Positions 51,908 through 60,637 of a stretch of DNA of 64,000 nucleotides are shown here, piece after piece. Each line of letters starts with the position of its first letter. Positions within the stretch are counted from its first letter, which is position 1. The stretch lies in contig SCSE01000001.1 in assembly GCA_004298015.1 (NCBI GenBank), positions 1 to 64,000 on the forward strand, written 5' to 3'. This stretch comes from Rhodanobacter sp. Its GTDB lineage: Bacteria; Pseudomonadota; Gammaproteobacteria; Xanthomonadales; Rhodanobacteraceae. Under the pieces are notes generated by a model. It saw nothing but the letters and a program-made list of their open reading frames with translations, was not told the DNA's origin and did not search any database. A program made the position numbers and the translations under genes.

Positions 51908-54900
51908 ATGATGCGTCGTCTGGTCGAATTTGCCCTGACCCAGCGGCTGCTGACGTTGCTGTTTGCGATTGGCATCGCGGCGGCAGGCAGCTGGGCGTTC
52001 GTGCAACTGCCGATCGATGCGTACCCCAATATCGCGCCCACCCAGGTCAAGTTGATTCTGAAGGCCCCGGGCATGACCCCGGAAGAGGTCGAGACACGGG
52101 TGGTGACGCCGCTGGAAATGGAGCTGCTGGGCATCCCTCACGCGCAGATGCTGCGCTCGACGGCGAAGTATGCGATCGCCGATGTCACACTCGACTTCAA
52201 GGACGGCACCGACATCTACTGGGCACGCCAGCAGGTGGCCGAGCGTTTCGCCGCTGCCTCAGGAGCGCTTCCGTCGGACGTCAGCGGCGGGTTGGCGCCG
52301 ATTGCCACGCCGCTGTCGGACATGTTCATGTTCACTATCGAAGGCGGTGGACTCAGCCTCGCCGAACGTCGCAGCCTGCTCGACTGGACGATTCGCCCGG
52401 CCTTGCGCACGATTCCCGGCGTCGCCGACCTGAATGCGCTTGGCGGCAAGGTGCGAAGCTATCTGGTGGTGCCAGACCGCGCGCGGCTTTCGGCTGCCGG
52501 GCTGCATTTTGGCGATGTGGTCTCGGCACTGCAACGTAACAACCGCAACGATGGCTCCGGCCGCCTGCGGCAAGGGGAAGATGCAGTAATCGTGCGTGTC
52601 GAAGGTGCCATCCGCACCCTCGCGGACGCGCGCCGCGTGGTGGTGACGATGCGCGATGGCGTGCCGGTGCGGGTAGGTGACGTCGCCGACGTGGCTTACG
52701 GCAGCATGACCCGCTACGGCGCGGTGACCCGCGATGGTGTGGGTGAATCGGTGGAGGGCCTGGTGGTAGGCCTGCGTGGCGCCGATGCGTCCAGGGTGGT
52801 CGCCCAGGTACGCGACAAGCTGGCGGCGCTGAAGTCCTCATTGCCGCCAGGCACCCGGATCGAAGTGTTCTATGACCGCAGCGCCTTGATCGAGCGTGCC
52901 GTGGGTACCGTCAGGAATGCGTTGATCGAGGCCACCGTGCTGGTGGTGATCCTGCTGTTGCTGTTTCTGGGCGATCTGCGCGCGGCGCTGGTGGTGTCGC
53001 TGACCCTGCCGCTGGCGGCGCTGACTACCTTCCTGTTGATGCACCTGTTCGGCATGAGTGCCAACCTGATGAGCCTGGGCGGATTGGCGATTGCGCTGGG
53101 CATGCTGGTGGACGCCGCGGTGGTGGTGGTGGAAAACACCACCAGTCACCTGGCGCCGGGTGGCGAAGCTTCGACCTTGCCGCGGCGTCATCGGGTGTAC
53201 CGCGCGGTGGCCGAGGTAGCCACCCCGGTCACCGCCGGCATCGTAATCATCTGCCTGGTGTTTGTGCCCCTGCTGACACTGCAGGGTCTCGAGGGCAAGC
53301 TGTTTGCGCCGGTGGCGCTGACCATCGTGTTTGCGCTGGCGGCATCGCTGCTGTTGTCGTTGACGGTGATACCCGCATTGTGCGCGATGCTGTTGCGGGA
53401 ACGCCCACACCACGTGCCATGGCTGATGCGCGTGCTCGACCGGGCCTACCGGCCGCTGCTGGACTGGTCGCTGGCGAACGGCCGCTGGATGGGGGTGGCC
53501 GCCGGGCTGACCTTGCTGTTGGGCGTGCTGGCTTACCTGGGTACCGGCAAGACCTTCATGCCGACGATGGACGAGGGCGATGTGTTGATGCAGCTGACCA
53601 AGCAGCCGTCGATCAGCCTGCAGGCGTCGCGGGACCAGGACCTGGCAGTGGAACGCGCAATCAAGGCCAGCCTGCCCGAAGTGGAGCATGTGGTGGCGCG
53701 GCTGGGCGCCGACGAGCTCGGTCTGGATCCGATGAGCCTCAATGAAACCGACATGTTCCTGCAGCTGAAGCCGAAGTCGAGCTGGCGCGAGCCGAGTCGT
53801 GCCTGGCTGGAAGCTCAGCTGCGCGAGGTGATGAAGAACTTTCCCAGTATCGAATACGGCTTTACCCAGCCAATCCAGATGCGGGTTTCGGAAATGCTTA
53901 CCGGCAGTCGCGGCGATGTGGCGGTGAAAGTATTCGGCCCGGAACTGGCGACCCTCAACCAGCTCGCCAATCGGGTGGCGGCGATCCTGGCGAAGACCCG
54001 GGGCGGTCAGGACGTGATAGCGCAGACCCAGGAGGGTGTGCGCTACCTTGGCGTGCAAATCGACCGACAAGCAGCCGGGCGCTATGGTCTGGACGTGGCC
54101 ACGATCCAGGACGAACTGCGCGCGCAACTGGAGGGCCAGGGTGCCGGCACGGTGATCGAAAGAGAACAGCGCACGCCGATCATCGTGCGCGGCTCGCGGC
54201 ATATCGCCGATACACCGATGCTGTTCGAGCGGCTGAGTCTGGCGCGCGGCGGCGCGGGGGAGGTGCCGCTCGATCAGGTCGCCCGCTTGCAGGCCACCAC
54301 CGGCCCGGTACAGGTTCGTCGCGAGAATGGCTCGCGCTTTGCGCTGGTGCAGGCCAACGTGGCCGGACGGGATCTGGTCGGCTTTGTCGAGGAAGCACAA
54401 GCGACCGTGGGGCGCGACGTCCATCTGCCGGCTGGCTACAGCATCAGCTGGGGCGGTCAGTTCGAAAACCAGCAACGCGCGGCCGCGCGGCTGGCGATCG
54501 TGGTGCCGGTCGCCCTGGTGCTGATTTTCCTGGTGCTGTTTTCCACCTTCGGCTCGATCCGCCAGGCGCTGCTGATTCTCTGCAACGTGCCGTTTGCGCT
54601 GGTCGGCGGCATGCTCACGCTGTGGTTGACCGGGCAGTACCTGTCGGTGCCGGCCTCGGTCGGTTTCATTGCCCTGCTCGGTATCGCGGTACTCAATGGT
54701 CTGGTGCTGGTGTCCCATTTCAACCAGCTCCGCGCCACCGGCCTGCCGATGACCGAGGCAGTGCGTGAAGGCGCGCTGCGCCGCCTGCGTCCGGTGATGA
54801 TGACCGCATCGATCACCGCGCTGGGCCTGGTGCCGTTGTTGCTGGCCAGCGGTCCCGGTTCCGAGGTGCAGCGGCCGCTGGCAGTGGTGGTGATCGGTGG

Positions 54901-54970
54901 CCTGGTCAGCTGCACCGCCTTGACCCTGCTGTTGCTGCCCGTGTTGTACCGCCGCTATGGCGAGGCTTGA
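51908..54970 (+). CDS. RND efflux transporter permease, heavy-metal (HME) type
   Basis: Proton-driven pump of 1020 residues with twelve helices and two large periplasmic loops. It is HME-like by TGKTFMPTMDEGDVLMQLTK and the IQMRVSEMLTGSRGDVAVKVFG region. The helix 4 motif GGLAIALGMLVDAAVVVVEN keeps Asp402 and Glu409, but has Ala396 where CzcA-type Zn/Co/Cd pumps carry a first Asp; in this it resembles CusA. The Met triad of CusA is only partly present. The substrate metal is therefore open. It is flanked by its adaptor, a DUF3240 protein and a TolC-family channel. Confidence 0.9.
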   Translation: MMRRLVEFALTQRLLTLLFAIGIAAAGSWAFVQLPIDAYPNIAPTQVKLILKAPGMTPEEVETRVVTPLEMELLGIPHAQMLRSTAKYAIADVTLDFKDGTDIYWARQQVAERFAAASGALPSDVSGGLAPIATPLSDMFMFTIEGGGLSLAERRSLLDWTIRPALRTIPGVADLNALGGKVRSYLVVPDRARLSAAGLHFGDVVSALQRNNRNDGSGRLRQGEDAVIVRVEGAIRTLADARRVVVTMRDGVPVRVGDVADVAYGSMTRYGAVTRDGVGESVEGLVVGLRGADASRVVAQVRDKLAALKSSLPPGTRIEVFYDRSALIERAVGTVRNALIEATVLVVILLLLFLGDLRAALVVSLTLPLAALTTFLLMHLFGMSANLMSLGGLAIALGMLVDAAVVVVENTTSHLAPGGEASTLPRRHRVYRAVAEVATPVTAGIVIICLVFVPLLTLQGLEGKLFAPVALTIVFALAASLLLSLTVIPALCAMLLRERPHHVPWLMRVLDRAYRPLLDWSLANGRWMGVAAGLTLLLGVLAYLGTGKTFMPTMDEGDVLMQLTKQPSISLQASRDQDLAVERAIKASLPEVEHVVARLGADELGLDPMSLNETDMFLQLKPKSSWREPSRAWLEAQLREVMKNFPSIEYGFTQPIQMRVSEMLTGSRGDVAVKVFGPELATLNQLANRVAAILAKTRGGQDVIAQTQEGVRYLGVQIDRQAAGRYGLDVATIQDELRAQLEGQGAGTVIEREQRTPIIVRGSRHIADTPMLFERLSLARGGAGEVPLDQVARLQATTGPVQVRRENGSRFALVQANVAGRDLVGFVEEAQATVGRDVHLPAGYSISWGGQFENQQRAAARLAIVVPVALVLIFLVLFSTFGSIRQALLILCNVPFALVGGMLTLWLTGQYLSVPASVGFIALLGIAVLNGLVLVSHFNQLRATGLPMTEAVREGALRRLRPVMMTASITALGLVPLLLASGPGSEVQRPLAVVVIGGLVSCTALTLLLLPVLYRRYGEA

Positions 54971-54979
54971 GGAGGTCGT

Positions 54980-55291
54980 ATGACGATGCTGTTGAAACGG
55001 CTGACGATGGTCGTGCCGCGTGAAATCGAAGAGTCCCTGGTGGCCGTCTTGCTGGACATCGAGCCGGCGTTGCCTGGCTTCACCACGATGGCAGTGGATG
55101 GCCATGGCGAAGGTTTCGCCCAGGCCAGCGTGCGTGAAAGCGTGCGTGGCCGTGTCGACCGCCGGATGCTGTGGATGGTCTTGCCGCAGGGTGACGAACA
55201 GCGCGTGCTGGCGCAGCTGTCCGCGCGCTTGCCACACAGTCAGATCGTGTGGTGGATCGAGCCGGTCGAGGCGATGGGGAGGCTGGCATGA
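54980..55291 (+). CDS. DUF3240 family PII-like small protein
   Basis: A 103-residue protein with the pattern of DUF3240: KRLTMVVPREIEESLVAVLLDIEP, GFTTMAVDGHGEGF and LSARLPHSQIVWWIEPVEAMGRL. Its size and beta-alpha-beta arrangement resemble PII signalling proteins. DUF3240 genes occur beside heavy-metal RND pumps, so it may sense a ligand and modulate the pump. A GGAGG precedes the ATG, and the stop overlaps the start of the channel gene (ATGA). Confidence 0.85.
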   Translation: MTMLLKRLTMVVPREIEESLVAVLLDIEPALPGFTTMAVDGHGEGFAQASVRESVRGRVDRRMLWMVLPQGDEQRVLAQLSARLPHSQIVWWIEPVEAMGRLA

Positions 55292-56562
55292 GGCATGCGT
55301 TCTGGCTTATCGCATTGTGGGCGGCGGCCGGCCATGCGCAGCCGCCAGCCCGTGATACCTCGCTGCCGCCGCAGGAGCTGGTGCTGCGGGCGATCGAGGC
55401 CACCCCCGAAGTCCATGCCGCCGAGGCGCAACTGGCACGCGCCGAAGCGGAGCAACGCATGCGTCGCGTAGGCTCCCACGAGACCCAGTTGACGGTGCTG
55501 CCGCAACAGCGCCAGGTCGAGGGCGGTGCGCGCTATCGTGAGTGGGAAGTCGCGCTCGCACGGGGCGTACGCTGGCCCGGCAAGGCGCGGCTCGATCGCG
55601 AGATTGGTGCGCAGGGGTATGAAGCCGCCCGGCTGCTGCTGGAGGACGCACATCATGCCGGGGCGCGGCGCCTGCTGGCCCTGTGGACGGACTGGCAGCG
55701 TGCCGGCGTAGTGGCGGATGTTCAGCAGAGCCAGGTGGCGCTGTGGCAACGTGACCTGGCCGTGGTGCGGCGCCGGGTGCAGTTAGGTGACGCCGCGCGT
55801 CGCGATCTGGTGACGGTCGAGGCGGCCCTGGCGCAGGCACGGGCCAGCGCCTTGCAGGCCTTGGCCGCGCAGATGTCGGCGCGGCTCGCACTGGTCAGCG
55901 AGTTTCCCGGCTTGCCGTTGCCGCAACAGGTCTTTTTGCCGACGGTACCGCCCCGTCTGGGCGACAACGACTGGGTCGCCCTGGTGCTGCAACGCAGCCA
56001 CGAAGTGGGCGCCGCCGAAGCCATGGTGCAACAGAGGCGGGCCGAGGCAGCGCGCGCCCGTGCCGAGCGCATGCCCGATCCGGTGGTGGGGATCCGTGTG
56101 CTCAATGAGCGCGGTGGGCGCGAACGGGCGCTGGGCCTGACGCTGTCGATCCCGCTTGGGGGCAGCTACCGCGGTGCCGTGGCTGCCGCCGCCGGTGCTG
56201 ATGCGCTGGCAGCCGAGGCTCGCCTGAGCATGGTGCGTCGCGAGGCGAAACACGATGTACAGCTGGCCGTGGCGATGGCGCGCAGCCTGCATGGTATCTG
56301 GCAACAGCAAAAGGTGGCGCGCACTGCCGCCGAGGCAAGTGCGAGCAAGGCCGAGCGTGCGTACGCACTGGGCGAGAGCAGCCTGACCGATGTGTTGGCG
56401 GCGCGGCGGGTGGTGCAGGAAACCGCATTGGCCGAACGACGAGCCAGCATCGACGCGGTCGAGGCCGTGGCGCGGGTCGAAGTGGATGCACATGAGCTCT
56501 GGCATCGTCATGAGGGTGCGGACGACGACGCGGCGCCGAGCCTGCCGAGCCTCGATTACTGA
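55288..56562 (+). CDS. TolC-family outer-membrane channel of the RND pump
   Basis: Outer-membrane efflux protein (CzcC/CusC-like). After the signal peptide FWLIALWAAAGHAQ come two repeats rich in Ala/Arg/Gln helices, ending in LRLARRVVQ-type helices such as AERAYALGESSLTDVLAARRVVQETALAERRA, the typical end of OEP repeats. There is no lipobox Cys. At 424 residues it has CzcC length. It starts on the DUF3240 stop and is the last gene of the operon. Confidence 0.88.
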   Translation: MRHAFWLIALWAAAGHAQPPARDTSLPPQELVLRAIEATPEVHAAEAQLARAEAEQRMRRVGSHETQLTVLPQQRQVEGGARYREWEVALARGVRWPGKARLDREIGAQGYEAARLLLEDAHHAGARRLLALWTDWQRAGVVADVQQSQVALWQRDLAVVRRRVQLGDAARRDLVTVEAALAQARASALQALAAQMSARLALVSEFPGLPLPQQVFLPTVPPRLGDNDWVALVLQRSHEVGAAEAMVQQRRAEAARARAERMPDPVVGIRVLNERGGRERALGLTLSIPLGGSYRGAVAAAAGADALAAEARLSMVRREAKHDVQLAVAMARSLHGIWQQQKVARTAAEASASKAERAYALGESSLTDVLAARRVVQETALAERRASIDAVEAVARVEVDAHELWHRHEGADDDAAPSLPSLDY

Positions 56563-56658
56563 TCACAGCGACAGCACTGGACCGCAAAAGTCGGCTTTCC
56601 ACGTGATCGGGCTTGCCTTGGCGCAATAACTTTCGGGCACCTGATGGCCAGTTTTGCG

Positions 56659-56690
56659 TTGACATTTCCGCATCGCAGCAGAACAATATA
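56659..56690 (+). promoter_or_regulatory. Candidate sigma70 promoter upstream of the mgtA leader
   Basis: A consensus TTGACA (56659-56664) is followed, 18 bases on, by ACAATA, or 20 bases on by AATATA. The -35 box is perfect while the -10 box is only fair. It lies about 230 bases before the small ORF and would produce a leader holding all the paired segments described for 56758-56917. Confidence 0.45.
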
Positions 56691-56757
56691 CGCGCTACCG
56701 GGCATGTTGCGCACGGCGGCTCCCAGTCCAGACAAACCAAAGGCATATGGACGTTTA

Positions 56758-56917
56758 CCCTAGTCGCAACGTCGACATCCGCTCGCTTCGGGTGCCGGCG
56801 TCACACAATCCGTTGAACGCCTGCGGCGACCGCCTGCGGTCGGCTGGCGCTTTCCTCGACTAGGGAAGCCCGGCCCACCCTGACGACGCCAATGGCGTCG
56901 TTACGAGGAGATGGGCC
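56758..56917 (+). promoter_or_regulatory. Structured RNA leader with alternative pairings at a ribosome-binding site
   Basis: Several complementary segments converge here. CCCTAGTCG (56758-56766) pairs perfectly with CGACTAGGG (56857-56865). CGACCG and CGGTCG make a hairpin (56827-56842). TTTCCTCG (56851-56858) can pair with the ribosome-binding segment CGAGGAGA (56904-56911). Alternatively, CTTTCC (56850-56855) can pair with GGGAAG (56863-56868). GGCCCA (56872-56877) can pair with TGGGCC (56912-56917), which would form a pseudoknot with the previous helix. TGACGACGCC and GGCGTCGTTA form a ten-pair hairpin (56881-56903) filling the space directly before the ribosome-binding segment. Alternative sequestering or freeing of GAGGAG is the logic of a translational riboswitch. 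The location upstream of an Mg2+ transporter suggests a Mg2+ or related signal. I do not recognise it as a known class. Confidence 0.6.
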
Positions 56918-56918
56918 A

Positions 56919-57131
56919 ATGAAGCTCCTTCGCGATTTGATCTGCCTGCGTGCCCATGGCCGCAGCCTTTTGCAGGGCCGGCGACGTGCGCCGGACCGTC
57001 GCTATGCGGTGACCGTGCCGCAACCGCTAGCCGCTCATGCGTCTGCAGCCACCGCCAGCGGTGCGGTGGCGACTGCCCAGGCGGTAGACACTACGCCGCC
57101 TGCCCCGTTCGGTTGGCTGTCCAGCTGCTGA
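56919..57131 (+). CDS. 70-residue small protein or leader peptide upstream of mgtA
   Basis: An ATG eight bases after GAGGAG opens a frame beginning MKLLRDLICLRAHGRSLLQ, followed by a very basic GRRRAPDRR, an Ala-rich middle and a Pro-containing end DTTPPAPFGWLSSC. I do not recognise a family. The strong ribosome-binding site lies inside the structured leader, so translation of this frame is what that structure would control. It ends 98 bases before mgtA. It may be a regulatory leader peptide, comparable in position to MgtL of enteric bacteria (no sequence similarity), or a small membrane-associated protein. Confidence 0.5.
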   Translation: MKLLRDLICLRAHGRSLLQGRRRAPDRRYAVTVPQPLAAHASAATASGAVATAQAVDTTPPAPFGWLSSC

Positions 57132-57165
57132 TCGGGCTTCTCATACTCCGCTTCCACCGCTGATG

Positions 57166-57189
57166 TGTGGCACGCGATTGTGTGCCGCA
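57166..57189 (+). promoter_or_regulatory. Hairpin between the small ORF and mgtA
   Basis: TGTGGCAC and GTGCCGCA form an eight-pair stem with one G-U pair and an eight-base loop. It lies about 40 bases before the mgtA ATG, whose own ribosome-binding site is weak. It could be part of the control of mgtA by translation of the small ORF upstream. Confidence 0.4.
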
Positions 57190-57229
57190 TCGTCACCAGC
57201 CGCAGCACGTCGAAACACGGTAGCCGTCC

Positions 57230-59878
57230 ATGAGCAAGCAAACGATCCAGGCGACGGTGAAGACCGCGCCCGCGGCACAGCGCGCGGTAGTGGCTGCCGA
57301 AGCGTTCCGCGGCAATGAGGAGCTGTTGACCGCGCTGCAGACCACGCCGAGCGGGTTGGACGAGGAGCAGATCAGCGAGCGGCTGCACCGCGACGGCCTC
57401 AACGAGGTGTCGCACGAAAAGCCGCCGCACTGGGCGCTGCAATTGCTGCGGGCGTTCAAGAACCCGTTCATCATCGTGCTGCTGCTATTGGCCGTAGTGG
57501 AGATTTTCGCGGCACCCGACGATCTTTCCGGACCGATCATCATCGCGGTGATGGTCAGCGTCAGCGTGCTGCTGAACTTCAGCCAGGAATACCGTTCATC
57601 GCGTTCCGCCGAGAATCTCAAGGCGATGGTGCGCAATACGGCAGCGGTCACCCGCAAGGCATCGGACGGACACAGCGAACAGATCGAGGTGCCGGTGGTC
57701 GAACTGGTGGTCGGCGACATCGTTCATCTGGCGGCCGGCGACATGGTGCCGGCGGATCTGCGTCTGCTCAGCGCAAAGGACCTGTTCATCAGCCAGGCGA
57801 TCCTGACCGGCGAATCCTTGCCGGTGGAGAAGTCCGCGCCGTCGCGCATGGCGAATCAGGACGCTGGCCAGGCCGCAACCGGTAGCGCGCTGGATCTGCC
57901 GACGGTCTGCTACATGGGCACCAACGTGATCAGCGGTACCGCGGCGGCCGTGGTGGTGGCCACCGGGGCGCGCAGCTACCTGGGGTCGCTGGCGCACAGC
58001 ATGACGGGTCAGCGTGTGCAGACCAGTTTCGACCGGGGCGTGAACAGCGTCAGCTGGCTGCTGATCCGCTTCATGGCGGTGATGGTGCCGATCGTTTTCC
58101 TGATCCAGGGTTTTGGTAAACACGACTGGCTCGAAGCGTTCCTGTTCGCGCTGTCGGTGGCGGTGGGGCTGACCCCGGAAATGTTGCCGCTGATCGTCAC
58201 CGCCAATCTGGCCAAGGGCGCGATGGCGATGTCCAAGCGCAAGGTCGTGGTCAAGCGGCTCAACGCGATCCAGAACTTTGGTGCGATGGATGTGCTGTGC
58301 ACCGACAAGACCGGCACCCTGACGCTGGACAAGATCGTGCTCGAGCGCCACCTCGACCTGGACGGTGAGGAATCCAACGAGGCACTCGAATACGGTTACC
58401 TCAACAGCCGTTTCCAGACCGGGCTGAAGAACCTGATGGACAAGGCGGTGCTGGAGCATCGCGACCTGGAATCCGCGGCGATGCGCTACCGGGTGATCGA
58501 CGAAATCCCGTTCGACTTCCAGCGCCGGCGAATGTCGGTGGTGGTCGCCAACGATGACGGCGAGCATCTGCTGATCTGCAAGGGTGCGGTGGAGGAGATG
58601 TTGTCGATCTGCACGTTTGCCCGCACCGGCGACGTCACCGAGCCGATGAACGAGCAGCGACGTCAGGAAATCAAGGCGATGACGCATCGGCTCAATGAAG
58701 ACGGATTGCGCGTGCTGGTGGTCGCCGTGCGGCGCTTGCCGGCCCAGGACCGCCCCTACAGTACGGCCGACGAGGATGACCTGGTGGCGGTTGGCTGCCT
58801 GGCCTTCCTCGATCCGCCCAAGGACTCCGCGGCCACCGCGATCCGCGCGCTTCACCACCATGGCGTCGAGGTGAAGGTGATCACCGGCGACAACGAGGCG
58901 GTGACGCGCAAGATCTGTCGCGAGGTCGGGCTGGACGTCACTCACTCCGTACAGGGTAGGGACATCGAATCGCTCGACGATGGCGCGCTGGATGCACTGG
59001 TTGCTCGGGTTACGGTGTTTGCCAAGATGTCGCCGATGCAGAAGGCGCGGGTGGTGCGCTCATTGCAGCGTCAGGGGCATACCGTCGGCTTCCTCGGCGA
59101 CGGTATCAACGATGCGCCCGCCCTGCACGATGCGGATGTGGGCATTTCGGTGGATACCGCCACCGACATCGCCAAGGAGTCGGCGGACATCATCCTGCTG
59201 GAAAAGAACCTGATGGTGCTGGAGGAGGGGGTGCTCGAAGGACGCATCACCTTCGGCAACATCATGAAGTACATCAAGATGACTGCCAGCTCCAATTTCG
59301 GCAACGTGCTGAGCATGCTGATTGCCAGCATCTTCCTGCCGTTCCTGCCGATGCTGCCACTGCAGATCCTGGTGTTGAACCTGTTGTACGACATCTCGCA
59401 GCTGTCGATTCCCTTCGACCGGATGGACGAGGAATACCTGCGCAAGCCGCGCAAGTGGGATGCCGGCGACATCGGGCGCTTCATGGTATGGATCGGCCCG
59501 GCCAGCTCGCTATTCGACATGACCACCTTCGTGTTGCTGTGGTTCGTGTTCGGCGCAAACAACATGGCGCACCAGTCGCTGTTCCAGTCCGGCTGGTTCA
59601 TCGAGAGCCTGCTGACGCAGACCCTGGTGGTGCACATGATCCGTACCCGAAAAATCCCCTTCCTGCAGAGCATCGCTGCCGCGCCGGTGCTCGGCCTGAC
59701 CACGGCGATCATCGTGATCGGCATGCTGATTCCGTACAGCACGATCGGCGCCAAGCTCGGCATGGTCGAACTGCCGCCGGTGTATTTCGCCTGGCTGGCG
59801 TTGACCGTGCTCGCCTACAGCGTGCTGACCCAGCTGATGAAGCTGATCTACATGCGGCGCTATGCGCGTTGGCTGTAG
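57230..59878 (+). CDS. mgtA: Magnesium-translocating P-type ATPase (MgtA/MgtB type)
   Basis: P3B-ATPase importing Mg2+ into the cytoplasm. It has the N-terminal cation ATPase domain (LNEVSHEKPPHWALQLLRAFKNPF), actuator motif ILTGES, phosphorylation site VLCTDKTGTLTL, nucleotide-binding domain with KGAVEEML, and hinge VGFLGDGINDAPAL. Ten membrane helices include VGLTPEMLPLIVTANLAKGA, the MgtA-type helix 4. At 882 residues it is near normal length. It lies downstream of the structured leader and small ORF. A weak ribosome-binding site before the ATG suggests that expression depends on the leader. Confidence 0.95.
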   Translation: MSKQTIQATVKTAPAAQRAVVAAEAFRGNEELLTALQTTPSGLDEEQISERLHRDGLNEVSHEKPPHWALQLLRAFKNPFIIVLLLLAVVEIFAAPDDLSGPIIIAVMVSVSVLLNFSQEYRSSRSAENLKAMVRNTAAVTRKASDGHSEQIEVPVVELVVGDIVHLAAGDMVPADLRLLSAKDLFISQAILTGESLPVEKSAPSRMANQDAGQAATGSALDLPTVCYMGTNVISGTAAAVVVATGARSYLGSLAHSMTGQRVQTSFDRGVNSVSWLLIRFMAVMVPIVFLIQGFGKHDWLEAFLFALSVAVGLTPEMLPLIVTANLAKGAMAMSKRKVVVKRLNAIQNFGAMDVLCTDKTGTLTLDKIVLERHLDLDGEESNEALEYGYLNSRFQTGLKNLMDKAVLEHRDLESAAMRYRVIDEIPFDFQRRRMSVVVANDDGEHLLICKGAVEEMLSICTFARTGDVTEPMNEQRRQEIKAMTHRLNEDGLRVLVVAVRRLPAQDRPYSTADEDDLVAVGCLAFLDPPKDSAATAIRALHHHGVEVKVITGDNEAVTRKICREVGLDVTHSVQGRDIESLDDGALDALVARVTVFAKMSPMQKARVVRSLQRQGHTVGFLGDGINDAPALHDADVGISVDTATDIAKESADIILLEKNLMVLEEGVLEGRITFGNIMKYIKMTASSNFGNVLSMLIASIFLPFLPMLPLQILVLNLLYDISQLSIPFDRMDEEYLRKPRKWDAGDIGRFMVWIGPASSLFDMTTFVLLWFVFGANNMAHQSLFQSGWFIESLLTQTLVVHMIRTRKIPFLQSIAAAPVLGLTTAIIVIGMLIPYSTIGAKLGMVELPPVYFAWLALTVLAYSVLTQLMKLIYMRRYARWL

Positions 59879-60004
59879 CGGGGCGGGCGTCGGGGCGTCG
59901 TACTGCTGCGGCAAGCGGATCGGCACCGGGTGGAGCGGAGCGGGTGCGAGGTCGGCGCAGGGTGTTCAGCGGATAGCGGGCTGCCACTCAGCAGCCGTGG
60001 CGAA

Positions 60005-60637
60005 TCAGTCGGCGCATGAGTCCGCTTTCGCGCGCCGTCGACGTCGACGTCGCCACCACAGCAGCACACCGATCAGCAGCACGAGGCCGACGAGGCCCCA
60101 CAGGCTGGCTTGCCCGCGGTGAATCCAGGTAATCAGCCATTGATGATTGTGGGCACCGAAATAGCCCAGATAAACCCAGATCGGTACGCTGATCAGGGCC
60201 GCCAGGGTATCGATCAGCAGAAAACGCGGGAATGAGACCCGGTGGGTGGTTCCCGCGGTGACATAAATGGTGGTGCGCATGCCGGGCAGGAAGCGCGCGA
60301 AAAACAGCATGCGGTTGCCGTAACGGTCGAACTTCTCCTGCACCTTGGCGTAGCGTGCCGGCGTGAGTACCCGGGCGACCAGCCGCCATTTGAGCATGCG
60401 ATCGCCGTAGTGGTGGCCGAGCAGGAAGATGCCCGAGTCGCCCAGCAGCACGCCGAACATGGTCAGCGCGAACATCGCATGCACATTGGCATAGCCGAGC
60501 CCGGCAATGACGCCGCCAGCCACCAGGGTGATGTCCTCGGGCAACGGTAGGCCGGCGCCACAGATCATCAGTGCGATGAACACGGCCAGATAGCCGTTGC
60601 GGGCGAAAATGGTCACCAGTGGTTCAAGCAGGTCCAT
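60005..60637 (-). CDS. DedA family membrane protein
   Basis: A 210-residue inner-membrane protein with VFIALMICGAGLPLPEDITLVAGGVIAG, LGDSGIFLLGHHYGDRM, FDRYGNRMLFFARFLPGMRTTIYVTAG and LIDTLAALISVPIWVYLGYFGA, all DedA/VTT domain motifs. DedA proteins are linked to lipid scrambling, membrane potential and envelope stress resistance. The C-terminus is highly basic (WWRRRRRRRAK). It is convergent with mgtA and lies just downstream of dnaG on the same strand. Confidence 0.92.
   Translation of the reverse strand: MDLLEPLVTIFARNGYLAVFIALMICGAGLPLPEDITLVAGGVIAGLGYANVHAMFALTMFGVLLGDSGIFLLGHHYGDRMLKWRLVARVLTPARYAKVQEKFDRYGNRMLFFARFLPGMRTTIYVTAGTTHRVSFPRFLLIDTLAALISVPIWVYLGYFGAHNHQWLITWIHRGQASLWGLVGLVLLIGVLLWWRRRRRRRAKADSCAD

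Follow-up and report, generated by a model that had tools for sequence, protein, structure and literature searches.

A conserved leader with a small open reading frame upstream of mgtA in Rhodanobacteraceae, a candidate translational switch for Mg2+ uptake

Described Mg2+ leaders and the region upstream of mgtA

To our knowledge, translational control of Mg2+ uptake through an upstream ORF (uORF) has been known from enterobacteria only. In the Salmonella mgtQ-mgtB system, as presented in the available text of PMC8092293, Asp2 and Glu5 of mgtQ, a uORF of 8 codons lying between two genes, destabilise ribosomes and so free the ribosome-binding site (RBS) of mgtB. Region 1 of this RNA lies inside the uORF, a 1:2 plus 3:4 fold alternates with a 2:3 fold, the RBS of the Mg2+ transporter gene is hidden in 3:4, and the output is translational. 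In the mgtL-mgtA and corL-corA leaders of E. coli and Salmonella, inefficient uORF translation at low Mg2+ turns the transporter gene on, the control acting at the level of Rho-dependent transcription termination (PMC11282234 and PMC11552253, in the parts available). For E. coli MgtL, ribosome drop-off at low Mg2+ is attributed to an EPDP motif (PMC11282234, same part). The short leader ORFs mgtM and mgtP of Salmonella mgtCBR also switch alternative stem-loops (PMC3641672, in part), and the M-box riboswitch, according to excerpts of PMC4072509, is one RNA class placed before unrelated Mg2+ importers, MgtA and NRMT-type Nramp included.

The leader analysed here lies in the first 64,000 nt of a contig of Rhodanobacter sp. 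(the whole stretch, hereafter the window). It shares with mgtQ-mgtB, as far as the available text of PMC8092293 describes it, a uORF with Asp2 and an early Pro, a region 1 inside this uORF, the 1:2 plus 3:4 versus 2:3 folds, an RBS hidden in 3:4 and a predicted translational output. Unlike mgtQ as there described, it contains a uORF of 33–41 codons within a leader, the hairpins are inside the frame, the uORF stop is at the 2:3 loop, the leader usually drives a small ORF (ORF2) before the transporter, and it precedes many different operons. With the mgtL leaders, as covered in the available parts of PMC11282234 and PMC11552253, it has in common early acidic and proline codons and alternative RNA structures; however, we noticed no relation in sequence, and the place of Rho-dependent termination would be taken by a hairpin sequestering the Shine-Dalgarno (SD) segment. 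Of the features of the mgtL/mgtQ kind, an RBS hidden in one of two alternative folds and an Mg2+ transporter downstream are present here, as is a conserved open frame whose translation is predicted, with one invariant acidic residue against two in both mgtQ and MgtL. The mgtCBR leader differs in that transcription attenuation answers ATP and proline (PMC3641672, in part). The M-box, an aptamer with mostly intrinsic-terminator output (PMC4072509, excerpts), differs from this leader, which has no M-box match or terminator-like site.

The leader region (56717–56943) is located between a CzcA-type efflux operon and mgtA. Comparative values in the following list refer to a set of 72 leaders, made up of 52 close leaders thinned at 93% identity and 20 distant ones, some of them below 70% identity; the swap test is described in the next section. 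All features are on the + strand.

56659..56687, +, sigma-70-type promoter, TTGACA-17-AACAAT (10/12 matches; shuffle mean 0.0)
56747..56863, +, uORF, 38 codons plus TAG, MDVYPSRNVDIRSLRVPASHNPLNACGDRLRSAGAFLD; in frame, stops avoided
56758..56766, +, 5' strand of helix P1, CCCTAGTCG, uORF codons 4–7 including the Pro5 codon; swap test
56857..56865, +, 3' strand of P1, CGACTAGGG, holding the uORF stop codon; swap test
56770..56800, +, P2 hairpin within the uORF; swap test, changes on both sides in 8/11 pairs
56827..56842, +, P3 hairpin within the uORF; consensus fold only, swap test unsupportive
56838..56879, +, P4ext, alternative (anti-sequester) hairpin with the uORF stop at its loop; both sides changed in 10/17 pairs
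56870..56879, +, shared strand CCGGCCCACC, partner of P4ext or of the SD hairpin
56872..56917, +, SD-sequestering hairpin (P5 and P6); mean z −4.6 over 72 leaders, swap test
56905..56911, +, SD segment of ORF2, GAGGAGA; read from the sequence
56919..57131, +, ORF2, 70 codons, small basic protein with a TVP(x)P motif; third-position excess
57230..59878, +, mgtA, Mg2+-translocating P-type ATPase; TIGR01524 equivalog, 1275.8 bits (cut-off 610.75)

Transcription is expected to start near 56694; in a 30-locus alignment, the TTGAC of the promoter was invariant and the AACAAT stretch mostly kept. ORF2 is predicted to be the first gene under leader control. It ends 98 nt before mgtA, whose start was taken as that of the longest ORF, the true start possibly being further in, and because of this gap mgtA may respond via polarity or through its own start. 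There were 0 sites with the form of an intrinsic terminator (a G+C hairpin followed by a T run) in 56560–57240. The genes directly upstream (51908–56562) encode a CzcA/CusA-type RND pump, a DUF3240 (PII-like) protein and a TolC-like protein, an operon class that is itself preceded by the same leader type at other loci. On the other side, convergent to mgtA on the minus strand (60005–60637), is what we take, from its sequence by eye, to be a DedA-family gene. A Xanthomonas DedA protein has been reported to be important for magnesium (PMC10470534, in part).

The earlier note on this DNA did not match the region to a known riboswitch class, and this agrees with Rfam: the five matches obtained in 55500–60000 at E values up to 10 were all under the gathering score and none was in the leader, and 18 loci yielded 0 matches at the gathering score. 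Among the open-licence papers listed for Rhodanobacter and its family, none concerned this leader, and Rhodanobacter, Frateuria, Dyella, Luteibacter and mgtA all go unmentioned in the main text of a survey that reports new RNAs from 50 genomes (PMC11109978). The region is a conserved regulatory RNA, and probably not a plain riboswitch.

Competing folds and their covariation

The perfect 9-bp helix reported in the earlier note, CCCTAGTCG (56758–56766) with CGACTAGGG (56857–56865), is present and covaries (P1); it ties the early uORF codons to the uORF stop region. Taken singly, the pairings of that note are weak evidence, because dinucleotide shuffling of the leader produces a perfect 9-bp inverted repeat in 126/1000 cases and the leader fold has a z-score of only −2.0 against shuffles. 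It is the conservation of the leader across relatives that establishes the element as real.

When the leaders were folded individually, two local hairpins were found to compete for one strand, P4ext (mean z −2.5 over the 72 leaders) and the hairpin burying the SD segment (for which the mean z is listed above). In P4ext, the partner of CCGGCCCACC is the 3' half of the uORF, and in the SD hairpin its partner is the SD region of ORF2. In 71/72 leaders, 4 nt or more of this shared strand (mean 7.7) were paired in both folds, and changes in it were matched on both partners, as in CCGG, GGCC and CCGG (L096) versus CTGA, GACT and TTGA (L266), given in the order P4ext partner, shared strand, SD-hairpin partner. 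Since strands are shared, P1 together with the SD hairpin excludes P4ext, the 1:2/3:4 versus 2:3 logic of an attenuator.

In the swap test, the own arms of each helix were compared with arms swapped between leaders in 5000 permutations, for leaders below 70% identity (n = 9) and below 80% identity (n = 17). Swapped arms were as good as the own arms of P1 in 1/5000 permutations with either set (4/9 pairs change on both sides), and the corresponding counts with 9 and 17 leaders were 1 and 0 for P2, 1–2 and 0–1 for P4ext, 16 and 24 for the outer P4 stem by itself, 2 and 0 for the SD stem, and 1 and 0 for P6. For P3, own arms were no better than swapped ones (2336 and 2138 of 5000). Two leaders with unsure or shifted landmarks were excluded, L251 from this test and L025 both from this test and from the ribosome-footprint folding described below. 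Both sides had changed in 10 of the 17 P4ext pairs and in 12 of the 20 pairs of P1 and P2 combined, with 0/500 shuffles as high and lower values for slid controls in each case; this alignment had been guided by P1 and P2 but not by P4ext. An R-scape-like covariation analysis of all pairs with a tree-based null, which has low power with the 52 close leaders, gave a best pair at E 0.417.

The other helices of the earlier note fared unevenly. Covariation was found for P1, the SD stem and P6; the proposed anti-SD segment TTTCCTCG (56851–56858) can indeed pair with CGAGGAGA (56904–56911), but it does not covary with the SD, and this pairing was rejected as a conserved one (permutations as good in 4506/5000 with 9 leaders and 3254/5000 with 17). 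The partial pairing of TTTCCTCG with GGGAAG (56863–56868) can be read in the sequence, as can the hairpin ACGACGCC-AAT-GGCGTCGT (56883–56901) before the ribosome-binding segment. GGCCCA (56872–56877) does pair with TGGGCC (56912–56917), but as a nested stem enclosing that hairpin, and it would amount to the proposed pseudoknot only in combination with the anti-SD pairing. Around the ORF2 RBS there are mutually exclusive pairings that covary, the conserved alternatives being P4ext and the SD hairpin.

Two further candidates were rejected, their own arms having no advantage over swapped ones: a stem of GTCC with GGAC surrounding the uORF start, and base-pairing between ORF2 codons and the SD. 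Pairings that failed the test serve as controls for those that passed. A diverged leader before an OprB porin gene (L051:2926–3144, G022) has 7/9 P1 pairs and a uORF of 38 codons ending in TGA, and its folds are the weakest (P4ext z −0.3, no better than shuffles; SD hairpin z −1.9).

The upstream ORF and ribosome position

The uORF, which was absent from the earlier note, was open to the expected TAG in 30/30 of the first loci and in 77/78 and 79/80 leaders of overlapping sets, and in 70/72 leaders the frame ran through to its predicted end at TAG or TGA, uORF lengths being 33 and 37–41 codons. The distance from ATG to stop was 111, 114 or 117 nt in 79/80 leaders (107 in one), so that length changes inside the uORF amounted to whole codons in 79/80; the distance from the stop to ORF2 took every value from 51 to 59 nt, and 61 nt, in the same 80 leaders. 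These 80 were chosen by pattern (ATGGAC, later CCTAGT or CCCAGT), which partly builds Asp2 and Pro5 into the set; among loci L001–L113 the pattern lost only L051 and L077. Natural frame breaks were observed in L089 (G172), where the uORF stops at codon 28, and in L251 (G115), where it overlaps the ORF2 start; both were excluded from the stop simulation and from the count of synonymous changes.

In the simulation (tree-based, 70 in-frame leaders, sites of change kept and the new base redrawn, 300 runs), in-frame stops were expected in a mean of 24.1 tips, with a minimum of 10, versus 0 observed, and 14.4 changes to stop were expected versus 7 inferred. Over the whole uORF there was no synonymous excess in these 70 leaders (178 synonymous changes versus 178.1 expected). 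Changes at codon positions 1, 2 and 3 numbered 275, 258 and 210, third positions changing least, and 38, 38 and 27 in 17 loci of the own genus. Because stops are avoided and yet synonymous changes are not in excess, we conclude from these substitution patterns that the frame of the uORF is kept and its peptide mostly not, with Asp2 and Pro5 as exceptions. The uORF begins with Met-Asp-x-x-Pro in the 72-leader set (Asp2 72/72; Pro5 72/72, with two synonymous codons), and a pattern-free alignment check found Met, Asp2 and Pro5 in 159/159 distinct leaders reaching the start, 77 alignments short of the start and one off the end of its locus not being counted. The early acidic and proline codons that mark uORF-controlled Mg2+ leaders are therefore present, although with a single invariant acidic residue. 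That the uORF is translated is something we infer, given that its peptide is unconserved beyond the RNA and its SD is weak (AAGG, short spacing).

We suggest, with a probability of about 0.6, that the leader is a uORF-controlled translational switch that answers low Mg2+ and is built like Salmonella mgtQ. With region 1 being the early uORF codons, region 2 the uORF end, region 3 the shared strand and region 4 the SD region, the early Met-Asp-x-x-Pro codons would make ribosomes falter or dissociate at low Mg2+, and region 1 would stay covered; P4ext could then form and the SD hairpin would weaken, so that ORF2 and, through ORF2, mgtA would be expressed. With enough Mg2+, ribosomes would reach the UAG and cover P4ext, the SD hairpin would form and expression would drop. 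We commit to one direction, with the switch ON when ribosomes falter early and OFF when they complete the uORF; it is inferred from the analogy with mgtQ and from the folding of nascent RNA. In this folding, with the ribosome footprint imposed, P4ext averaged 10.0 bp over 71 leaders when no ribosome was placed; this rose to 13.2 bp when codon 5 was occupied and fell to 0.4 bp when the stop was.

In favour of the same direction, the SD stem of the window's own full leader had 9.3 bp with no ribosome, 2.7 bp when one occupied codon 5 and 6.9 bp with one at the stop. Against it, the means over 71 full leaders were 9.5, 8.3 and 7.9 bp, the lowest being at the stop, and at equilibrium no ribosome position freed the SD: the mean probability of its being unpaired was 0.23–0.24 throughout (about 77% paired; 71 leaders). 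The values for the own leader (0.47 with no ribosome, 0.35 at codon 5 and 0.47 at the stop) go in the wrong direction, since the SD finds other partners. As equilibrium folding fails to free the SD, the proposed switch would have to be kinetic and co-transcriptional.

Distribution, downstream genes and alternative readings

A DNA search of 60 relatives gave a match in 36. In the own genus, the leader was found in 34/36 genomes searched, the own one included, with 2 weak matches in another family, and 162/233 genomes of the family had it at E ≤ 0.01, a few of those near E 0.001–0.01 possibly being due to chance. A covariance model (R1), built from 52 leaders in alignment A2, matched 101/398 genomes of the order, 100 of them in the own family and one a partial 25-bit match lacking a uORF. 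Among 369 genomes of the class, R1 matched one, the own genome, and this indirect comparison revealed no sequence relation to mgtL or mgtQ. MgtA was found in 0/3 genomes of family f3, a search that lacked a positive control and carries no weight. Two genomes hold four leader copies, and no plasmid copies were detected at the sensitivity of the search. The core pattern was found, among the 80 of 104 stretches listed, in Rhodanobacter, Dyella, Frateuria, Luteibacter, Fulvimonas, Dokdonella and bins labelled Lysobacterales or Proteobacteria; the named records carrying it identify the family as Rhodanobacteraceae. It also occurs in a 4.4-kb contig labelled Candidatus Eremiobacteraeota (L191), a label that is probably due to mis-binning. 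Left out of the 72-leader set were L052 and L055 (no model match), L053 and L054 (which matched only DNA beyond the leader start of ORF2), L267 (G502, 25 bits, without a uORF) and L077 (cut by a contig end).

The first recognised gene downstream of the 72 leaders was MgtA in 47, a count that reflects sampling because close leaders were thinned at 93% identity. The earlier proposal of a structured cis-acting RNA before a small ORF and an Mg2+ ATPase is supported, with a link to Mg2+ importers. An AdoMet-decarboxylase-like (SpeD-like) gene came first in 10/72 (followed by Nramp and OprB in 7 and by a TonB-dependent receptor in 3), an HlyD adaptor with a CzcA-type pump in 7/72, a Na/Pi cotransporter in 4/72, and a Na/H antiporter, Nramp and OprB once each. 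The gene downstream of L259 matched none of the reference proteins used, and its first long ORF is presumably a TonB-dependent receptor, judging by eye. For CzcA-type efflux, TonB-dependent receptors and OprB, a role in Mg2+ handling is not obvious. In L255 and L257, the hairpin buries the start of the Na/Pi carrier gene directly, and this suggests that the output is translation of the gene that follows. The nearest solved structure to the Nramp protein is 7qia (E 3e-56, 194 bits; the next at 86 bits), the magnesium transporter EleNRMT (PMC8806188, in part), and the sharing of this leader type by two unrelated Mg2+ importers, MgtA and the NRMT-like Nramp, points to Mg2+ as the signal. In Salmonella, low Mg2+ induces importers as well as polyamine synthesis, according to the available text of PMC12421838. 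A Na/Pi cotransporter gene also follows mgtA, 3.3–3.6 kb past the uORF start, at seven loci (L071, L107, L110, L049, L104, L095 and L096), linking phosphate and Mg2+ carriers beyond the leader.

The proposed mechanism could operate with another input, a cation stress such as Mn2+, heavy metals or acid rather than Mg2+ shortage. The leaders before CzcA-type efflux (7/72), Na/Pi (4) and Na/H antiporter (1) genes would fit such a signal; however, both MgtA (47/72) and the NRMT-like Nramp belong to families of Mg2+ importers, and we consider this version unlikely. A true riboswitch, as envisaged in the earlier note, would bind Mg2+ or a metabolite directly, the open frame being incidental or secondary. 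Nucleotides are indeed more conserved than codons, with no third-position excess, P1, P2, P4ext and the SD hairpin covary, Mg2+ transporters lie downstream, and for the E. coli mgtA leader direct binding of Mg2+ by the RNA is still regarded as possible (PMC11552253, in part). However, uORF length changes by whole codons in 79/80 leaders and stops are avoided, L051 keeps its frame with the weakest folds (P4ext z −0.3; SD hairpin z −1.9), and Rfam gave no aptamer match. Moreover, a conserved ORF runs through P1, P2, P3 and the 5' half of P4ext, which makes the passage of ribosomes a likelier input than a ligand. The ligand-binding part of the earlier proposal is therefore unsupported, and we regard a riboswitch as quite improbable.

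Two other readings keep the ribosome as the agent. In the one, ribosomes finishing the uORF would open the SD hairpin or re-initiate at ORF2, switching ORF2 on by translational coupling. This fits a uORF stop 51–61 nt upstream of ORF2, a mean SD stem that is at its weakest when the stop is occupied (7.9 bp, versus 8.3 at codon 5 and 9.5 with none) and an SD accessibility with no preference for an early ribosome position. However, the stem is mostly formed even with a ribosome at the stop, and P4ext, which covaries, would have no purpose, so that coupling also seems rather improbable. In the other, a specific nascent peptide would sense a small molecule such as arginine or a polyamine and stall the ribosome. 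Several residues are near-invariant, as in ...DRxRSAGAF.D-stop at many C termini, and an AdoMet-decarboxylase-like gene is present in 10/72 operons. However, the whole uORF lacks a synonymous excess, the C-terminal codons coincide with the 5' arm of P4ext, and leaders before Na/Pi carriers (L255 and L257) encode quite different peptides; we consider such an arrest highly improbable.

If the preferred reading, a uORF-controlled switch answering low Mg2+, is extended to the family, leaders of this type would jointly control a Mg2+-shortage regulon throughout it, with an RNA that reads the position of the ribosome and not a molecule. We put this wider reading forward tentatively, and as one that may well fail; in it, the RNA would gauge ribosome performance at low Mg2+, because selection keeps the frame and the folds and not the peptide. 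The leader, which recurs across Rhodanobacteraceae in front of many operons, would then define a testable Mg2+ regulon, and a second form of control with no detected sequence relation to the first would suggest that Mg2+ is repeatedly gauged by ribosomes faltering on acidic and proline codons. More than 150 distinct natural variants would provide a set for working out how ribosome position is converted into an RNA switch.

The small ORF behind the leader evolves differently from the uORF. In the 17 own-genus loci, ORF2 changes at the three codon positions numbered 256, 264 and 361, and because of this third-position excess it is, by its codon pattern, a real and fast-evolving small protein. 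It had no Pfam match, and its peptide, used as a query against the genome contigs, found no confirmed relative. ORF2 of MgtA-type operons keeps the TVP motif, usually as TVPxP, and a stretch like W-x(n)-G-x-x-ARW was read by eye in many ORF2s of mgtA-, CzcA- and Nramp-type operons. In SpeD-type operons, a tail like HADMRPPSR is conserved (L248, L249, L251, L254, L256, L258 and L264), and this Arg-Pro-Pro tail may be a second stalling peptide. RPPSR also occurs a few residues before the ORF2 end in L250, L252, L259 and L261.
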